A stretch of DNA of 36,487 nt, from assembly GCA_014860805.1 (NCBI GenBank), contig JACZJB010000127.1, positions 1-36,487 on the forward strand, in the 5' to 3' direction. Position numbers and translations under genes: made by a program. The notes under the pieces were generated by a model that was not told the DNA's origin, searched no databases, and saw only the letters and a program-made list of their open reading frames with translations. Positions 2,685-25,059 of the stretch are shown here, piece after piece. Every line of letters starts with the position of its first letter. Position 1 is the stretch's first letter. Source of the stretch: Anaerolineales bacterium (GTDB taxonomy: Bacteria > Chloroflexota > Anaerolineae > Anaerolineales > Villigracilaceae).

Positions 2685-2700
2685 TTAACCTAACCAAAAT

Positions 2701-2737
2701 AACAGCGCGGACGATATCGTCCGCGCTGTTATTTTTT
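2701..2737. terminator. Bidirectional intrinsic terminator
   Basis: A perfect 30-nt palindrome (2701-2730: AACAGCGCGGACGAT and its complement) is followed by ATTTTTTT on the + strand. It lies between the convergent MFS and thioredoxin-like genes and can serve both, though the U-tract is much better on the + strand. Confidence 0.85.
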
Positions 2738-2743
2738 TAACTT

Positions 2744-3277
2744 TTATTGCAGGTTTGCATTAAACAGATTTCTAAATTCATCTTCTGAAATGTAGCCGAT
2801 CAATTTCTTGATCACATTTCCATTTGCATCCAGAAGATAGAACTCGGGCTGGTAGTAAAAACCCAATTCCTTTTGGAATACATCTGTACGGGGGTCATCT
2901 GCATCAAGATAGGAGAATTTAACCTTGCCGTAATACTCTGCTTCGAGTCCATGAACCATGGACGCCATTGAACGGCAGGTACCTCAGGTGAAGCGGAAAA
3001 ATTCCACCAGTTGCAATTGTCCCGAAGCGAGGCTGACCGTGGTTGGATCTGTTGCTTCGAGGTTAGGGCCGCGGGAAGTGGCGACGGCTTGCACATCCAC
3101 GCTGCTGGCTGCGGTAGCCGCTGGAGCAGTCGCTTCAGGGGCAGTTGTGGCAGGCATTGCTTCCACGACGGGAGGGGCTTCAGCAATAGGGGTGCTGATC
3201 GATTGTGCTGAGGCGCAGGCAGATGCCGCTAGTGCGATGATCAGACTCACTGTCCAGAAAAAGAGGCGGGGTTTCAT
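2744..3277 (-). CDS. Thioredoxin-fold lipoprotein with in-frame UGA: probable selenoprotein (U-G-T-C active site)
   Basis: Read through one internal TGA (2986-2984), this is a 177-residue exported thioredoxin-like protein. The start at 3277 has AGGAG 7 nt upstream; an earlier in-frame ATG at 3295 has no such site. Residues 1-21 form a lipoprotein signal ending ASAC (Cys21), then comes an Ala/Pro/Thr-rich linker to about 65. The thioredoxin fold runs from about 80: LVEFFRFT, position 98 (TGA), Gly-Thr-Cys101, RSMASMVHGLEAEY, and QPEFYLLDANG with the usual cis-Pro. The TGA falls exactly on the first Cys of the CxxC motif and both sides share one frame, so selenocysteine insertion is the natural reading. 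A fitting hairpin follows. A nonsense mutation in an ordinary CGTC protein is the main alternative. It would act outside the membrane as a thiol/selenol oxidoreductase. No sel genes lie in the window. Confidence 0.8.
2947..2963 (-). promoter_or_regulatory. Candidate bacterial SECIS hairpin
   Basis: In the mRNA (minus strand), GUCCAUG (2963-2957), loop GUU (2956-2954) and CAUGGAC (2953-2947) make a perfect 7-bp stem inside the coding region. The loop starts 27 nt after the UGA. A short apical loop with G at its first position, a 4-16 bp stem and a loop 16-37 nt from UGA match the bSECIS consensus as I recall it. SelB binding is inferred. Confidence 0.7.
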
Positions 3278-3303
3278 CGGTTTTCTCCTATTCATAATAG
3301 TTA

Positions 3304-3450: not shown

Positions 3451-5025
3451 ATGGCAGATTTTAAACTTACGTATGCAACCATGTTCAACCCGCCCGAAGA
3501 ATTGCACGTTGGCTTTGATAAAGCCGTGGAAAAAATCAAGAGCAATATGGGGCAGGAATACACCATGTTGATCAATGGCAAGGAAGTAAAAGCCGACGAG
3601 AAATTTGACGACCATTCCCCCGTCAACACGGAATGGGTGCTGGCGAAAATGCAGAAGGGCAACGCGAAACACGCACAGGAAGCCATGTCCGCTGCGCGAG
3701 CGGCTTTCCCAATGTGGAGCCATACCCCCTGGCAAAAACGTGTTGAACTGCTCCGCAAAGCCGCTTCATTAATTGAAGAGCGCATTTTTGATCTGGGTGC
3801 GGCGATGGCGCTTGAGGTTGGAAAAAATCGAATGGAGTCATTGGGCGATGTGCAGGAGACAGCCGACCTTATTTATTATTCCTGTTATCAGATGGAAAAG
3901 AACAACGGCTATGTCGTTGAAATGGGCAAAGACCCGCTGGTGGGTTATGAAGCCCGCAACGTCTCTGTGCTGCGTCCGTACGGCGTATGGCTGATCGTTT
4001 CCCCGTTCAACTTCCCACATGCCTTAACGGGCGGCCCGATGGGCGCCGCCCTGGTCGCTGGAAATACAATTGTGGTAAAACCTGCCACCGATACTGCATG
4101 GATCGTGCGCTTGCTGATCGATTGCTTCCGCGATGCGGGTTTTCCTGCCGGTGTGGTGAACTTCGTTACGGGTCCTGGCTCTACTCTTGGGCAGGCTCTC
4201 GTTGATTCTCCTGAAGTGGACGGCGTCACCTTTACAGGTTCCTTCGATGTCGGCATGAAAATGTATCGGGATTTCGGCAACCGAAATTACGTGCGCCCGA
4301 TGATCCTTGAGCTTGGCGGAAAGAATCCCGTCATTGTCTCAAAGAATGCGGATCTGGAACGCGCCACCATCGGAATCATCCGCTCGGCGTTTGGCTTGCA
4401 GGGACAGAAGTGCTCCGCCGCTTCTCGCGTGATCGTAGAGGATTCTGTCTACGATGAACTGATCACCCGCCTGAAGGATGCGGCGGGCAAACTTGTCCTT
4501 GGCGACCCGACCGATCGCAACACCTACAATGGACCTGTTGTTAACAAATCATCCTACAACGACTTCAAGAATTTCTGTGAAGAGATCAACCAGGGCGGCG
4601 GCAATTTCCTGATCGGCGGCAATGTCAAAACTGGCGGTATGTTCGACAAGGGCTATTACTGTGAGAATACCTTCGTCACCGATTTGCCTTTCAGCCACCG
4701 TTTGTGGAAACACGAAATGTTCCTGCCCATCACCACGATCGGCAAAGTCAGCAGCCTTGATGAAGCCATGACGATTGCCAACAACGTGGACTACGGCCTC
4801 ACTGCTGGCTTCTACGGCTCTCCCGAAGAGACCGACTGGTTCTTCGATAAGATCGAAGCTGGCGTGACCTACGCGAACCGTCCGCAGGGTGCCACCACAG
4901 GCGCATGGCCAGGCTTCCAGCCATTTGGCGGCTGGAAAGGCTCAGGCTCCAGCGGCAAGAACGCTGGCGGTCATTACTACGTCCCGCTGTACATGCATGA
5001 ACAGATTCGGACTCTAATTAAATAA
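3451..5025 (+). CDS. pruA: L-glutamate gamma-semialdehyde (1-pyrroline-5-carboxylate) dehydrogenase
   Basis: NAD-dependent aldehyde dehydrogenase that oxidises glutamate-gamma-semialdehyde to glutamate, the second step of proline and ornithine breakdown. The length of 524 residues matches the monofunctional RocA/PruA type (about 515). Visible are the general-base Glu287 in LELGGKNP, the catalytic Cys321 in GQKCSAAS, the substrate-side SPFNFPHALTG stretch, and the C-terminal PFGGWKGSGSSGKNAGG typical of P5C dehydrogenases. It has its own strong promoter, a good GGAGG site and a downstream hairpin, so it is probably monocistronic. No proline dehydrogenase gene is nearby. The family call is firm; the exact substrate is assigned by resemblance. 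Confidence 0.92.
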   Translation: MADFKLTYATMFNPPEELHVGFDKAVEKIKSNMGQEYTMLINGKEVKADEKFDDHSPVNTEWVLAKMQKGNAKHAQEAMSAARAAFPMWSHTPWQKRVELLRKAASLIEERIFDLGAAMALEVGKNRMESLGDVQETADLIYYSCYQMEKNNGYVVEMGKDPLVGYEARNVSVLRPYGVWLIVSPFNFPHALTGGPMGAALVAGNTIVVKPATDTAWIVRLLIDCFRDAGFPAGVVNFVTGPGSTLGQALVDSPEVDGVTFTGSFDVGMKMYRDFGNRNYVRPMILELGGKNPVIVSKNADLERATIGIIRSAFGLQGQKCSAASRVIVEDSVYDELITRLKDAAGKLVLGDPTDRNTYNGPVVNKSSYNDFKNFCEEINQGGGNFLIGGNVKTGGMFDKGYYCENTFVTDLPFSHRLWKHEMFLPITTIGKVSSLDEAMTIANNVDYGLTAGFYGSPEETDWFFDKIEAGVTYANRPQGATTGAWPGFQPFGGWKGSGSSGKNAGGHYYVPLYMHEQIRTLIK

Positions 5026-10096: not shown

Positions 10097-11464
10097 TTAT
10101 TTTTCATCAGCAAGCAGCCTGTCCACCAGTTCCGCAGCCAGACCAATATACGAGTGCGGCGAAAGTGAAATCAATTGGGCGCGCACTTCATTGTTGACAT
10201 CAATTGACGCCACCCAGGATTTGTAATCCGCTTCAGTAAGAACACGCCCGCGCGTTTGCTCTTTGAGCGACTCATACGCATCGGGCATTCCTGCTGCCCG
10301 CAGAATGGTCTGTGCGCCTTCAGAGACGACCTCCCAATGGGCGTTCAACTCCGCCGTTAGTTTTTCCTCATCGGGAGCAATACGCTTCAACCCGCTCTGG
10401 AAGTTGTTCCACGCCAACAAGCTGTGACCTAACGCTGTACCAAATGTGCGGCGGACGGTTGAGTCGGACAAGTCGCGCTGCAGGCGCGAGATTGTCAGTT
10501 TTTGGGCATAGTGCACAAAAAGGGAATTTGCCACGCCGAGGTTGCCTTCCGCATTCTCAAAGTCAATTGGGTTCACCTTTTGCGGCATGGTGGATGAACC
10601 CACCTCCCCTGCCACTACCGCCTGTTTGAGATAGCCGTCACTGATGTAGCGCCAGATATCTTGCGCAAAGTCTATCAAAATGGAATTGGCGACGCGGACG
10701 AGGTCAAAATAACGTATCCAATTGTCATAAGGGAGAATTTGCGTGGTAAATAAATTGGGCTCAAGATCAAAACTGGAAACAAATTTTTGGCTGAACGAAA
10801 TCCAGTCCACTTGCGGGGCGGCTGCTTGTAATGCGTTGAAGTTACCAACTGCGCCTGTCAACTTGGCTTCAAAACGGTAAGCCGAAATATCATCACAAAT
10901 CTTTTTGAGGCGTGCAACATAAACGGCGAATTCTTTCCCCAATGTCGTGGGAACGGCGAATTGTCCATGGGTGCGGGCAGGCATGGGAACGGATTTGTAG
11001 CGGATGGCAAAAGCGGAGAGAGCAGTAATTAGCAATTGAAGAGCAGGGACAATGATCTTATCTCGAGACTCTTTCAAGGCAATAGCTTGCCCAAGACTGT
11101 TGGTGTCTTCGGAAGTCAAGCCAAAATGAATCCACGGAAGCAGGTCTTGCAATGACGAGCTTTGCAGCTTGCCCTGAATAAAGTATTCAATGGCTTTGAC
11201 GTCGTGTCTTGTTTTACGTTCATAATCCAAAATCGATTCCGCATCGGCGGAGGAAAAATTTAAGTTAACAGCTTCGAGCTGCGCTGATTCAGAATCCGTC
11301 AGAGGGCGGATCATGCCAGTTTTGGAAAGAGCAGCTAAAAAGTTAAGTTCGACGCGGACGCGGTCACGCAGGAAAGCGAATTCGGAGAAGAACTCAGTCA
11401 GCAGCGCGGTCGCTTCTGCGTAGCGGCCATCCAGGGGAGAGAGGGCATGGAGGGAATCAGTCAT
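10097..11464 (-). CDS. purB: Adenylosuccinate lyase
   Basis: A 455-residue fumarase/aspartase-superfamily lyase that cleaves SAICAR to AICAR and adenylosuccinate to AMP, releasing fumarate. The signature SSTMPQKVNPIDFENAEGN begins at residue 290, matching the E. coli-type PurB mobile loop with its catalytic Ser. The N-terminal SPLDGRYA and the TRTHGQFAVPTTLGKE-like region (here ARTHGQ) are also clear. Its ATG overlaps the stop of the IMP cyclohydrolase gene by 8 bp, so the two are translationally coupled. Both catalyse steps around AICAR and IMP. Confidence 0.95.
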   Translation of the reverse strand: MTDSLHALSPLDGRYAEATALLTEFFSEFAFLRDRVRVELNFLAALSKTGMIRPLTDSESAQLEAVNLNFSSADAESILDYERKTRHDVKAIEYFIQGKLQSSSLQDLLPWIHFGLTSEDTNSLGQAIALKESRDKIIVPALQLLITALSAFAIRYKSVPMPARTHGQFAVPTTLGKEFAVYVARLKKICDDISAYRFEAKLTGAVGNFNALQAAAPQVDWISFSQKFVSSFDLEPNLFTTQILPYDNWIRYFDLVRVANSILIDFAQDIWRYISDGYLKQAVVAGEVGSSTMPQKVNPIDFENAEGNLGVANSLFVHYAQKLTISRLQRDLSDSTVRRTFGTALGHSLLAWNNFQSGLKRIAPDEEKLTAELNAHWEVVSEGAQTILRAAGMPDAYESLKEQTRGRVLTEADYKSWVASIDVNNEVRAQLISLSPHSYIGLAAELVDRLLADEK

Positions 11465-12029
11465 TCTTGAGATATCCTGAGATCATGGTATCGTAATGTG
11501 CGCAGGTCTGAAAGCCTTTGACCGCAAGCTTTTTGCGGGAGACAAAAGGGATTTTACCGTTTCGCAAAGCGGAGAGGATATCATTGTAATCGGCGGGGTC
11601 GCAAACGAGTGTAACTCGTTCATGGTTTTTTGCAGCCGCACGGATCAGAGTTACACCGCCGATGTCGATGTTTTCGATGGCATCCGCGTAGGTGACCTCC
11701 GTTTTGGCGATGGTCTCTTCAAAGGGATAGAGATTGACGGCGACGAGGTCAATGTAATCCCAACCGAGGTTGAGAAGTTCGTTGCGATCGAAATCGGTTG
11801 GACGGGCAAGCAAACCGCCATGAATGGCGGGATGCAGGGTTTTGACTCGACCTCCTAAAATTTCAGGCGACTTGGTATAGTCTGCAACTTCGGTGACGAG
11901 GATGTTATTGTCACGCAGTAGTGCGGCTGTCCCTCCTGAAGCGAGGAGAGTCCAGCCAAGGGAGGCAAGTCCCTGGGCGAATTCGATAATTCCAGTTTTA
12001 TTGTAAACAGAGAGAATGGCAATGGGCAT
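11457..12029 (-). CDS. purH: IMP cyclohydrolase (N-terminal PurH domain as a separate gene)
   Basis: A 190-residue MGS-like domain that closes FAICAR to IMP, the last step of purine synthesis. It shows AILSVYNKTGI, LLASGGTA, KTLHPAIHGGLLA, VAVNLYPFEET and ENIDIGGVTLIRAAAKNH, all hallmarks of the first ~200 residues of bifunctional PurH. It stops where the transformylase domain would normally begin. Start 12029 is preferred over 12056 because GAGGAG lies 8 nt upstream. The transformylase half is a separate gene upstream (12246-13421), so domain order is inverted relative to the fused enzyme. It overlaps purB. Confidence 0.92.
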   Translation of the reverse strand: MPIAILSVYNKTGIIEFAQGLASLGWTLLASGGTAALLRDNNILVTEVADYTKSPEILGGRVKTLHPAIHGGLLARPTDFDRNELLNLGWDYIDLVAVNLYPFEETIAKTEVTYADAIENIDIGGVTLIRAAAKNHERVTLVCDPADYNDILSALRNGKIPFVSRKKLAVKGFQTCAHYDTMISGYLKND

Positions 12030-12086
12030 GAAAAACTCCTCGTAAGATAACAGCAATAATTTGAATAAATTGAATTGTTTATGTCT

Positions 12087-12245
12087 TCAGGTTTGCATTT
12101 CTGTTGAAATCACATTCTTGAGCGCATCAATTTCTGTTGCCAGCATGGGACCATTGTCTACGCCTTCGTCTGGGACGAGGTGAACCATGGCACCTGTTTT
12201 TTTATCTCGCCGCGGTGATATGCTTCAAAAGCACCCAGCGCGAAA
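12087..12245 (-). pseudogene. purN: purN remnant (C-terminal fragment, frameshifted)
   Basis: Starting right after the transformylase stop codon, minus-strand frame from 12244 reads GAFEAYHRGEI. After a 7-A run (12203-12197) the next frame reads TGAMVHLVPDEGVDNGPM and ends in TGA at 12087. Together these are the C-terminal third of glycinamide ribonucleotide transformylase, with no start, no N-terminal formyl-folate and substrate domain, and a one-base shift at the homopolymer. The final residues after GPM also look collapsed compared with normal PurN. It is a dead remnant or, less likely, an assembly scar. Confidence 0.75.
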
Positions 12246-13421
12246 TTAATGATGAAAGAGACGGACACCAGAGAAGATCATCGTCATGTCGTATTCGTTC
12301 GCGGCTTGAATAACAACGTTATCGCGGGTGGAACCGCCCGGTTCAAGAACATATTTCACGCCGCTGACGGCTGCACGGTCAATGCTGTCACGGAAGGGGA
12401 AGAAAGCGTCGGAGCCAAGTGTGACTGAATCCAACCTGGAGAGCCACTCCCGTTTATCGTTGAGAGTCAATTGTCGAGGAGTCTGAGCGAAAATATTTCC
12501 CCAATCCGCTTTTTCATTTTGAGTCACATCGTCACGCAGGAATTGGTCAATGGCGTTGTCACGGTCGGGACGTTTGATGCCAGATTTGAAACGTAAATCT
12601 AAAATGGCGGGATGCTGACGCAGCCACCAGAGATCCGCTTTTTGGCCAGCGAGGCGGACACAGTGAATGCGCGATTGCTGCCCTGCGCCCACTCCAATGG
12701 TCTGACCATCCGTAACAAAACAAACAGAATTAGACTGAGTGTATTTGAGCGTGATCCACGCAAGGGTAAGGTCACGAAGCGCGAAGTCTGGCAAATCCTT
12801 TTTGGTAGTGACGATATTATTAAAATCCGACGGTGTAATGAGGCGATCATGATGGCGCTGCTCAAACGTGACCCCGAAGACATCTCGCGTTTCAACAGAT
12901 GAAGGTTCATAGGCAGGGTCAATTTGCACAACGGCATATTTACCCTGTTTTTTATGTTTGAGGATTTTCAAGGCTTCAGGTTCATACGCAGGTGCAATCA
13001 CGCCATCGGAAACTTCGCGGGCGATCAGTTTGGCGGTGGAAACATCCACGGTATCGGAGAGTGCAATGAAATCACCGAATGAACACAGGCGGTCCGCTCC
13101 ACGGGCGCGGGCGTAAGCCGTGGCAAGCGGCGAGAGTTCCATATCGTCCACAAAGTAGGTTTTTTTGAGCGTATCAGAAAGCGGCACAGCCACTGCGGCA
13201 CCCGCAGGACTGACATGTTTGAAAGACGCAGCCGCGGGCAAACCCAACGCGGACTTGAGTTCACGTACAAGCTGCCATGCGTTGAGCGCATCCAGAAGGT
13301 TAATGTAACCTGGCGAACCGCCAAGGACGGTAATTGGCAAATCAGCACCATTCTTCATAAATACGCGAGCTGGAGCCTGCTGGGGATTCGTGCCATAACG
13401 AAGCACAATTAATGATGACAT
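12246..13421 (-). CDS. purH: AICAR transformylase (C-terminal PurH domain as a separate gene)
   Basis: A 391-residue stand-alone phosphoribosylaminoimidazolecarboxamide formyltransferase. It carries LRYGTNPQQ at the start, catalytic Lys68-His69 in SFKHVSPAGAAVAV, SNSVCFVTDGQTIGVGAGQQSR, SDAFFPFRDS and the usual PurH C-terminus ending FSGVRLFHH. It uses 10-formyl-THF to formylate AICAR, and the cyclohydrolase encoded downstream then closes the ring. Start 13421 is chosen because AAGGAA is well spaced from it and too close to the ATG at 13427. It follows the purM remnant stop directly and is followed by the purN remnant. Confidence 0.92.
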   Translation of the reverse strand: MSSLIVLRYGTNPQQAPARVFMKNGADLPITVLGGSPGYINLLDALNAWQLVRELKSALGLPAAASFKHVSPAGAAVAVPLSDTLKKTYFVDDMELSPLATAYARARGADRLCSFGDFIALSDTVDVSTAKLIAREVSDGVIAPAYEPEALKILKHKKQGKYAVVQIDPAYEPSSVETRDVFGVTFEQRHHDRLITPSDFNNIVTTKKDLPDFALRDLTLAWITLKYTQSNSVCFVTDGQTIGVGAGQQSRIHCVRLAGQKADLWWLRQHPAILDLRFKSGIKRPDRDNAIDQFLRDDVTQNEKADWGNIFAQTPRQLTLNDKREWLSRLDSVTLGSDAFFPFRDSIDRAAVSGVKYVLEPGGSTRDNVVIQAANEYDMTMIFSGVRLFHH

Positions 13422-13432
13422 AAACATTTCCT

Positions 13433-22522: not shown

Positions 22523-23830
22523 ATGTTTCAACGTATTGCACGCGGACTTGAGATTACACTCGCGCTTCTAATTCTTGGTTTTGTAGCAGGTTACAGCAAT
22601 CCTTCTCTCACAAATCCAATGGAAAAGGTGCGCGCCTTTACGCGCCAGATCGAATTCAACTACATCTCATGGATGTCAAATGCCGCCGTTCTTAAAGTCC
22701 GTGCGGCTTCGGTTGGGGCGCCATACACGCTTGGCCATGAAGCCCAAAAACAGATCGTCAACGAAAACCTGCGCCTTACGCAGCTCATTTTGGAAAAAGA
22801 ATATCAACTTACCCAAGTGTACGCAAACCCGGCCGTCACAGACAAGGAAACAGAATCACAAACACTGCGCGCCGAACTTAATGAATATTATCTCAGGCAA
22901 AGCCGGCTTGCTCCGCTTGCCGAAGCCATACTGCAGGAACAGGTTACGCAAATCCTCGCGGAGCTTGGTTTTACCGCTGCTGGTCAGCCCATCCCAAATG
23001 TCTGGTACCACTCCACTCGATTACCAATGGCGCTTGTTATTTCGCCTCGCGACCGCATTGAACAAACTGCAAATATTTCAGTGAATACCGATTTGACCAT
23101 CGACCAACAAGTTCAATTGGAAAGCGATGTCGACAAGGGACTCGATGTCTCCTCACTTGTCGTCAACATCGGCGGTGTCGGCGTATACCCCACCATGGTC
23201 CAGCGAACCACTGACCTGAATTGGACTCTCAGCACCATTGCCCACGAATGGATTCACAACTATCTGACCCTGCGCCCACTCGGAATCGTATATAACGAAA
23301 CACCCGAACTTCGCACCATGAACGAAACCACCGCATCCATTGCCGGGGATGAGATTGGGGCACTCGTCATCGAACGCTTTTACCCGGAACGGAGAACTGC
23401 ACTTCAATCTGATTCAAATCCAGTTACCGCCTCTTCCCCAAGCCTGAGCCTGATCTCATTTCCGTTGGAACACCCCACGCCGGCAGATTTTCCACGTCCT
23501 CAATTTGATTTCCGCGCCCAAATGCACGAGACACGCATCACAGCCGATGCCCTGCTCGCAGAAGGGAAAATAGAAGAAGCGGAAGCATACATGGAAGAAC
23601 GCCGTCTTGTTTTCCTAGAAAATGGGTATCTATTCCGCAAGATCAACCAGGCATATTTTGCGTTTCACGGGGCATATGCGGATGTTCCCGGTGGCGCGGC
23701 AGGTGAGGACCCTGTGGGACCGGCTGTTCGCGCATTAAGAGCACAAAGCAAATCCCTTGCAGATTTTGTCAATACGATTTCGTGGATGTGGAAATACGAT
23801 CAGTTGCAGAAGGCAGTCAACCCTAAATGA
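22523..23830 (+). CDS. Membrane-anchored HExxH metallopeptidase, predicted
   Basis: A 435-residue protein with one N-terminal membrane segment (about 10-24); the rest is extracytoplasmic. A zinc motif HEWIH (241-245) follows LSTIA, and NETTASIAGDEIG (267-279) supplies a likely third ligand, Glu268 or Glu277, as in gluzincin-type peptidases. I do not recognise a named family. The region 90-150 is helical and may form a coiled coil. Its TGA overlaps the ATG of the next gene (ATGA), so it is coupled to the DsbA-like/cyclophilin lipoprotein, which suggests a role in processing or quality control of exported proteins. Confidence 0.75.
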   Translation: MFQRIARGLEITLALLILGFVAGYSNPSLTNPMEKVRAFTRQIEFNYISWMSNAAVLKVRAASVGAPYTLGHEAQKQIVNENLRLTQLILEKEYQLTQVYANPAVTDKETESQTLRAELNEYYLRQSRLAPLAEAILQEQVTQILAELGFTAAGQPIPNVWYHSTRLPMALVISPRDRIEQTANISVNTDLTIDQQVQLESDVDKGLDVSSLVVNIGGVGVYPTMVQRTTDLNWTLSTIAHEWIHNYLTLRPLGIVYNETPELRTMNETTASIAGDEIGALVIERFYPERRTALQSDSNPVTASSPSLSLISFPLEHPTPADFPRPQFDFRAQMHETRITADALLAEGKIEEAEAYMEERRLVFLENGYLFRKINQAYFAFHGAYADVPGGAAGEDPVGPAVRALRAQSKSLADFVNTISWMWKYDQLQKAVNPK

Positions 23831-25059
23831 AACGAACCTTGCTATTTTTTCTGATTTTCAGCGCAAGCATTTTTACACTGAGCGCATGTACAAGCAATAC
23901 TCAGATCCCGCCCACCCCAGTCAGCATAAACACGCCGCTGATCGTCAACACGCCTACCCAGGTTATCGGTTGTTCAACCATCTCCGCTGAACCTACCCCC
24001 GCCCTCGGTGCAGGCTCCATTTATCCACCCGTCAGCGGCGCGGATTTTTCCATGGGACCCGCAGATGCGCCTGTAACCTTGATCGTCTATTGCGACTTTC
24101 AATCGCCCGGCTGTAAAAGCACAGAGACGGTTGTCACTGAACTGATGAAAAATCACGAAGATCTGCGGCTCGTCTTCCGTCCCATTCCATTGATAGGAAT
24201 TCTTGACAAGTCCGAAGGAGCCATTCTAGCCGCCCTTGCGGCAGACCAGCAAGGTCAATTCTGGACGATGTATGATCTTCTCTTTACCAAGCATACCGAG
24301 TGGGTAAATTTAACCCCAGCCAGGTTTAATGACTGGGTAATAAAAGAAGCCGTCGCTGCCGGCATGGATGGGAATCAATTTACAGATGCGATGAATGCTT
24401 CCGAAACAGCCACCAGAATGATGTCCATGTATGATGCGGCAAAAAAATTAAGCATTGCTGCTGTCCCGCTCGTCCTTATGAACGGCGAGCAATTTTATTT
24501 GCTTGATTATAAAAACATGAGCGATACCATCGGTATCATTGCACTTGGACAAAAACAATTCACCAAATGCCCGCCTTTTAATATTGATATGGACAAACGA
24601 TATCTTGCCACCATTAAAACGGAAAAAGGCAATATTGTGATCGAGTTGTATCCGAAGAAAGCGCCGCTGTCAGTAAATTCGTTCGTATTCCTTGCACGCG
24701 AAGGCTGGTTTGACGGTGTGACTTTTCATCGCGTCATTCCCGGCTTTGCGGCACAGGCTGGCGACCCGAGCGGCACGGGCAAGGGCAATCCTGGATATTT
24801 TTTCAACAACGAGATCAGCGATCTATTCTTTGACAAACCCGGCATGGTGGGGATGGCAAACTCCGGACCTGATACAAATGGCAGCCAATTCTTCATTACA
24901 TTTGCACCTGCGCCACACCTGGACGGCTCCTACACGATCTTCGGGCAGGTCACCAGCGGATTGGATGTTGCCGAAAACCTGACTCCGCGAGATCCTGACC
25001 AAGGCTTGCTCCTGCCGCCCGGAGACAAGATCATCAGCATCACCATCGAAGAGAAATAA
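23827..25059 (+). CDS. Lipoprotein with DsbA-like and cyclophilin domains
   Basis: A 410-residue lipoprotein (lipobox LSAC, Cys21) with two folding-helper domains. Residues about 65-250 are a DsbA-like thioredoxin domain (DAPVTLIVYCDFQSPGC). Its first active-site Cys is replaced by Ser93 (S-P-G-C96), while another Cys, Cys89, lies before the Asp. Residues about 258-410 are a cyclophilin peptidyl-prolyl isomerase with FHRVIPGF, QAGDP, GMVGMANSGPDTNGSQFFI and HLDGSYTIFGQV. The cyclophilin half looks active. It overlaps both neighbours (ATGA and TAATG), forming a coupled envelope-folding set. Confidence 0.9.
   Translation: MKRTLLFFLIFSASIFTLSACTSNTQIPPTPVSINTPLIVNTPTQVIGCSTISAEPTPALGAGSIYPPVSGADFSMGPADAPVTLIVYCDFQSPGCKSTETVVTELMKNHEDLRLVFRPIPLIGILDKSEGAILAALAADQQGQFWTMYDLLFTKHTEWVNLTPARFNDWVIKEAVAAGMDGNQFTDAMNASETATRMMSMYDAAKKLSIAAVPLVLMNGEQFYLLDYKNMSDTIGIIALGQKQFTKCPPFNIDMDKRYLATIKTEKGNIVIELYPKKAPLSVNSFVFLAREGWFDGVTFHRVIPGFAAQAGDPSGTGKGNPGYFFNNEISDLFFDKPGMVGMANSGPDTNGSQFFITFAPAPHLDGSYTIFGQVTSGLDVAENLTPRDPDQGLLLPPGDKIISITIEEK

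Follow-up and report, generated by a model that had tools for sequence, protein, structure and literature searches.

The classical thioredoxin carries the active-site motif CGPC, the catalogued selenocysteine (Sec) thioredoxin (PF00085, UxxC) is cytosolic, and lipoprotein thioredoxins of the CcdA-linked TlpA/ResA type are also a known type. NCBIfam further holds NF041057, the Rcas_1661 family thioredoxin-like (seleno)lipoprotein, whose Rcas tag we take to stand for Roseiflexus castenholzii, a member of the Chloroflexota. Thioredoxin PF00085 UxxC figures among experimentally verified selenoproteins in the accessible text of PMC13188914, where the NF041057-type family is termed 'DsbG-like' and further small thioredoxin-like selenoproteins are described, namely HUIPC (NF047660) and Thioredoxin-like Sec.1/Sec.2 (PF13192). 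At word level, that accessible text makes no mention of Chloroflex, Anaerolin, lipoprotein, periplasm, extracytoplasm or secreted, and the accessible parts of a 2022 review, PMC5029168 and PMC12013277 make none of Chloroflex or Anaerolin; likewise, no literature on exported selenoproteins of Anaerolineae was found among the titles and abstract openings listed. Sec-containing formate dehydrogenases are reported for Anaerolineales in the portion of PMC4959059 that was available.

The protein of interest is encoded in the window, i.e. the whole stretch of 36 487 nucleotides of DNA that was analysed, from an uncultured member of the Anaerolineae. It shares with the PF00085 UxxC proteins the thioredoxin fold, Sec as the first residue of the motif and a resolving Cys as the fourth, and differs from them by the addition of a predicted signal peptide, a lipobox and a tether; with the thioredoxin equivalog TIGR01068 it scored 30.8 bits (cut-off 96.8). 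Like NF041057, to judge from the name of that family, it would be a thioredoxin-like lipoprotein able to carry Sec, but NF041057 (cut-off 190 bits) was not listed for it at E-values up to 1 and was matched weakly by 10 of its 37 close relatives (best score 24.4 bits; N-terminal part in two matches listed). An extracytoplasmic lipid-anchored thioredoxin fold, as predicted here, is also found in the TlpA/ResA type, and both a lipoprotein of this type and a CcdA-like protein are encoded in the window genome; that type, however, uses Cys where the window protein uses Sec, and the latter reached 23.9 bits with dsbE (cut-off 123), TlpA and ResA not being listed at E-values up to 1. HUIPC and the PF13192 proteins resemble it as small thioredoxin-like selenoproteins, yet neither NF047660 nor PF13192 was listed for it at E-values up to 1. 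No model of NCBIfam release 20 gave a score over its cut-off with the window protein, which forms a new family, from class Anaerolineae, within an already known kind (Sec thioredoxin-fold lipoprotein). The kind itself is not new because NF041057 is already a thioredoxin-like (seleno)lipoprotein family; calling a lipid-anchored selenothioredoxin 'unusual', as the original prediction did, was too strong.

That prediction rested on a single TGA placed at the first CxxC position of an otherwise open lipoprotein-thioredoxin frame, and a fresh reading of the frame agreed with it: nucleotides 3277-2744 of the minus strand make up 177 codons and a TAA (2746-2744), the TGA at codon 98 (2986-2984) being the sole interruption. 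It is followed by Gly-Thr and then Cys101 (Table 1). From general thioredoxin knowledge we take U98 to be at the nucleophile position and Cys101 to be the resolving Cys. The listing of open reading frames of at least 80 amino acids under translation table 11 contains, in this frame, a 103-amino acid piece ending at the TGA, which makes it plausible that the gene was, as suggested, hidden by gene calling. A second in-frame ATG is found at 3295, 6 codons upstream of ATG 3277; the start at 3277 is favoured because of the AGGAG at 3289-3285 (by eye). Residues 18-21 (ASAC, by eye) form the lipobox, and a Pro/Ala/Thr-rich tether separates its Cys21 from the thioredoxin domain.

Table 1. Features of the selenoprotein locus and its surroundings (positions in the window)
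Feature	Position	Strand	Basis
Predicted selenoprotein gene, exported thioredoxin-like lipoprotein, 177 residues, UGTC active site	2744..3277	minus	frame translation, Pfam, orthologues, alignment
Putative Sec codon TGA, residue 98, nucleophilic-Cys position of CxxC	2984..2986	minus	same lone TGA in 37/37 + 80/80 relatives
TGC codon of resolving Cys101	2975..2977	minus	invariant column, 37/37 sequences
Predicted signal peptide + lipobox, Cys21 expected to be lipid-anchored	3215..3277	minus	sequence ALAASAC; lipobox-like pattern in 80/85 clusters
Thioredoxin domain, residues 85-177, invariant Pro144 at predicted cis-Pro position	2747..3025	minus	Pfam, structure model, Foldseek, alignment
Probable ribosome-binding site (AGGAG) 7 nt upstream of ATG 3277	3285..3289	minus	by eye
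Hairpin of bacterial SECIS type, GTCCATG-GTT-CATGGAC (stem of 7 bp; loop of 3 nt with GU first; 27 nt downstream of UGA)	2947..2963	minus	covariation, RNAalifold, bSECIS model
Symmetrical terminator-like hairpin, 18 pairs, between selenoprotein gene and convergent ATG22/MFS-like gene	2696..2735		1 found; shuffled region mean also 1.0
Aldehyde dehydrogenase gene, divergent, conserved neighbour	3451..5025	plus	Pfam PF00171; in 44/66 loci

Conservation of the TGA was analysed in two sets of sequences: (i) a sample of 61 genomes of the window's family (the window's genome plus an even selection of 60 from a larger group), a close orthologue (E ≤ 4e-31) being present in 37 of them, and (ii) a scan of genome contigs which yielded 103 relatives, the best 80 of which were examined. 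Exactly one in-frame TGA, at the same position and with no other stop, was present in 37/37 close orthologues and in 80/80 of the best 80 of 103 relatives; the latter bear the titles Chloroflexi, Chloroflexota, Anaerolineae or those of taxa belonging to them, and also include Brevefilum, Desulfolinea and one Herpetosiphon. When grouped at 97% domain identity, the 117 loci give 85 clusters; all of the loci display a UxxC motif (mostly UGTC and USTC), and a lipobox-like pattern of our own design was found in 80 of the 85 clusters, contigs ending inside the gene included. Since the same lone TGA recurs throughout both sets, chance is excluded. A pseudogene or a sequencing error, in which the catalytic codon would have turned into a nonsense codon, would match the truncation of the protein at residue 97 under table 11, but it is at odds with the absence of any other stop from the loci of all 85 clusters and with an otherwise conserved domain, in which 20 columns are invariant among the 37 orthologues (including U98, C101, the HGLE stretch after C101 and Pro144). 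Conservation refutes this reading in practice, and we consider its probability to be close to nil. The occurrence of U/TGA in related genomes was thus as foreseen, and decay or scattered stops in relatives, which had been named as grounds for rejection, were seen in none of the loci read. Another possibility is that UGA is read as Trp or Cys, because of a changed code or leaky readthrough, with selenium playing no part; TGA does sit where distant homologues have Cys. However, TGA is also the gene's own terminator in 9/37 and 15/80 loci; there is therefore no genome-wide code reassignment, and general reassignment of UGA was rejected.

According to the accessible text of PMC13188914, the bSECIS model comprises a loop of 3-9 nt with G then G/U, a stem of 4-16 bp, a spacing of 16-37 nt and a free energy of -7.5 kcal/mol or lower; these published values were applied with a script of our own instead of the program bSECISearch. 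The window hairpin, which has a stem of 7 bp, the loop GUU, a spacing of 27 nt and a free energy of -7.8 kcal/mol, fits them, so that the bSECIS check proposed at the outset had a positive outcome, although for this hairpin taken singly the synonymous-shuffle P is a modest 0.017. The model fits 77 of the 85 clusters, versus a mean of 5.5% for synonymous-codon shuffles, and P was ≤0.05 in 76; the -7.5 kcal/mol threshold was missed by 8 clusters. Among the 37 orthologues, the 57 nt from the UGA onward align without gaps and 95.8% of the cells in the hairpin columns (24-40) are paired, a figure that drops to 12-47.5% once one side is displaced by 1-3 columns. Compensatory changes were found in pair 28-36 (A-U to G-C in 8 sequences) and in pair 25-39 (C-G to U-A in 2 sequences, one of them the window); pair 30-34, the one next to the loop, is disrupted in 10/37 sequences, where the loop is of 5 nt. 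When columns were shuffled, 37 of 500 trials also reached two double-changed pairs, and none of the 500 attained the observed number of double-changed cells or the observed covariation score; with one side displaced by -1, 10 double-changed cells are still obtained. The same hairpin was recovered by RNAalifold, together with a small one before it, and codon choice follows the hairpin, with CCC for Pro in 32/35, GGG for Gly in 35/37 and GCG for Ala in 36/37 sequences at those sites.

The original prediction called for selA, selB, selC and selD in the source genome. Three of the four were found there: tRNA-Sec (68.5 bits, cut-off 47; ARAGORN agrees), SelB (349 bits, cut-off 242) and SelA (540 bits, cut-off 268). 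SelD over the cut-off was sought in the window's MAG and not found, which leaves the Sec machinery incomplete in this assembly; the best match (61 bits) is a HypE-like protein beside a HypD-like one (locus read by eye) and was rejected as SelD. SelD is present in 25 of the 28 class genomes tested, including 9/9 other genomes of the window's genus, and the negative result here is most likely due to a gap in this 97%-complete MAG of 274 contigs. At the family level, SelB and tRNA-Sec were over the cut-off in 57/61 and 55/61 genomes, respectively; among the 37 genomes with an orthologue, two (G001 and G022) gave no tRNA-Sec. Such near-universal occurrence carries little co-occurrence information, and therefore a comparison of Sec and Cys forms at the class level was used instead. 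As a separate observation, 24 of the 25 class genomes with a SelD over the cut-off carry a single in-frame TGA in SelD itself (e.g. L230-L232), the exception being G319, which has no tRNA-Sec match.

The 396 class genomes gave 59 matches at E ≤ 5e-27, with a TGA in 57 and none in two (G336 and G319). Matches listed for the phylum outside the class were weak (E of 5e-15 or worse), mostly without TGA, and are presumably ordinary thioredoxins. The Sec/Cys counts concern a part of the class matches, namely 60 fetched loci which yielded 62 rows typed by profile alignment: the aligned position is U in 48 rows and C in 14, the latter from 10 genomes. All 14 Cys rows fall outside the window's clade. 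The forecast of Cys at position 98 in most homologues held only in part, Cys forms being found in more distant members of the class and none being seen in the window's clade. A tRNA-Sec of more than 55 bits, a cut chosen after the scores were seen (the Rfam gathering score is 47), was detected in 40 of 41 Sec-form genomes versus 3 of 10 Cys-form genomes (Fisher P = 8e-6, indicative only, the rows being related). Matches of 86-91 nt and 48.6-52 bits (G336, G210, G063 and G131), which would pass the Rfam gathering score, were left uncounted because five genomes with a clear 92-95 nt match (G018, G183, G282, G359 and G172) also carry such a one. Genomes were typed as Sec or Cys by the fetched loci alone; five of the Sec genomes (G394, G100, G259, G217 and G328) have a further, unfetched match without TGA, and five genomes with tRNA-Sec scanned and proteins unfetched (G131, G349, G401, G356 and G315) enter no count. 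Cys rows L223-L225 and Sec rows L217 and L221, which form a separate tree branch, were kept in the counts. A hairpin at -5 kcal/mol or better was found in 42/48 Sec rows versus 1/14 Cys rows, and at -7.5 kcal/mol in 24/48 versus 0/14. A tree of 99 rows requires 10 U/C changes, with no Cys row among the 48 on the window's side, although many of its forks are uncertain because of the few columns available. In one genus, the sisters L194 and L200 (SH-aLRT 99) differ in the same way, L194 being a Sec form with tRNA-Sec and L200 a Cys form without it. Sec/Cys switches accompanying loss of tRNA-Sec would be natural pairs for finding out what selenium gives an extracellular thioredoxin. To return to UGA as a Trp or Cys codon, the presence of tRNA-Sec, SelA and SelB, and a hairpin that covaries and is weak or absent in 13/14 Cys rows, weigh against it as well, and make it a very improbable reading. 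The apparent stop TGA98 almost certainly encodes selenocysteine, as far as comparison of sequences can tell.

With the TGA read as a residue, the window protein matches the Pfam thioredoxin family PF00085 (35.9 bits versus a gathering score of 23.5). AlphaFold predicted a confident thioredoxin core (pLDDT of 93-98 in blocks from residue 81 on) preceded by a low-confidence tether, and the best Foldseek match (E = 3.9e-8) was to a thioredoxin chimera. The nearest solved structures are thioredoxins or thioredoxin fusions (18-29% identity among the matches listed), and a sequence search gave the same picture. Judging from the alignment and the predicted fold, Pro144 is at the cis-Pro position.

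The best explanation as a whole, to which we assign a probability of about 85%, is a selenoprotein made by means of UGA98 and the hairpin, i.e. a predicted exported, lipid-anchored thioredoxin with a thiol-disulfide role and a CcdA-type electron supply. The hairpin 27 nt downstream would recruit SelB with Sec-tRNA, and the ribosome would then read UGA98 as selenocysteine, as conservation suggests. The lipobox-like pattern predicts that the protein is exported and lipid-anchored at Cys21, the Pro/Ala/Thr-rich tether carrying the thioredoxin domain, while by analogy with the family the U98-G-T-C101 pair would cycle between selenol/thiol and selenenylsulfide. Most likely, it would function outside the cytoplasm as a thiol-disulfide reductase or isomerase, its targets being disulfides or oxidised thiols in envelope proteins. 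Electrons would most probably reach it by way of a membrane carrier of the CcdA type, and the window genome does encode a CcdA-like protein (35.5 bits, cut-off 27.1). At L228 of that genome, the gene of a TlpA-like lipoprotein with Cys (by eye) is immediately followed by a CcdA-like gene.

The gene neighbourhood was also considered. By direct count, a divergent aldehyde dehydrogenase gene is present in 44 of the 66 loci having at least 2.5 kb upstream; genes for CoA-transferase subunits and a hydrolase come next. A reductase or substrate gene was sought among the neighbours and none was recognised; the conserved neighbours point to no redox partner and represent shared gene order, not evidence for joint function. 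A real selenoprotein with another role (a dedicated partner protein, redox work on peroxide or metals, or the part of a Dsb-type oxidase) could be suspected from this divergent catabolic cluster, from the lack of a recognised reductant adjoining the gene and from the middle residues of the motif, which vary widely (UGTC, USTC, UPTC, UYTC and URTC), unlike those of CGPC. Sequence and fold are nevertheless those of a thioredoxin, rather than of DsbA or a peroxiredoxin, and such a role appears less likely. The locus reveals a class-wide, lineage-specific family of predicted exported selenoproteins, the products of which standard annotation would cut in half.

Eleven class loci from 10 genomes (L183, L205-L208 and L211-L216) have a TGA at both motif positions and a frame open to a later stop, with the motifs UPTU, USTU, USHU, UAPU, UPAU and UHIU; export of these UxxU proteins was judged by eye alone. 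Each retains a single hairpin, at a distance of 26-27 nt from the first UGA and 17-18 nt from the second, which reaches -7.5 kcal/mol in 6/11 loci and at least -6.0 kcal/mol in 11/11. tRNA-Sec was detected in 9 of the 10 genomes and not found in G361. Since both spacings lie within 16-37 nt, a single SECIS may be sufficient to decode both UGA codons, which are 9 nt apart, and the UxxU forms are natural material on this question. In the accessible passages of the literature, the catalogue entries with UxxU are peroxiredoxin-like, metal-binding and FmdB proteins and a Prx-like family, PF00085 not being among them. We would put at even odds the wider proposal that anchored Sec thioredoxins make up an entire selenium-thiol system outside the cytoplasm of Anaerolineae, and that in some lineages the resolving Cys has been replaced too, giving a predicted diselenide thioredoxin.

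In one set of twenty regions of family genomes that were read, 7 are orthologues that appear in all counts and 13 are others, with no readable frame in L047, L048, L053 and L056. A second family with a thioredoxin domain, an N-terminal hydrophobic stretch and the motif LEFQSPYUxxC, with one TGA each, is represented by L049, L050, L051, L052, L054, L055 and L057. Two more single-TGA thioredoxin-like proteins are encoded at L046 (G036) and L058 (G060); one has a long N-terminal part with a tetratricopeptide match below the cut-off and the other has ASWUPAC after a lipobox-like start. Elsewhere in the window, a lipoprotein-like protein (23827-25059, plus strand) combines a thioredoxin domain of the DsbA kind (PF13462, PF01323), with the motif CDFQSPGC and no CxxC, and a cyclophilin-type isomerase (PF00160) in a single fusion. 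Finally, purH (11457-13427, minus strand) is apparently in two genes, one with the MGS domain and the first AICARFT part and a separate one with the remainder.
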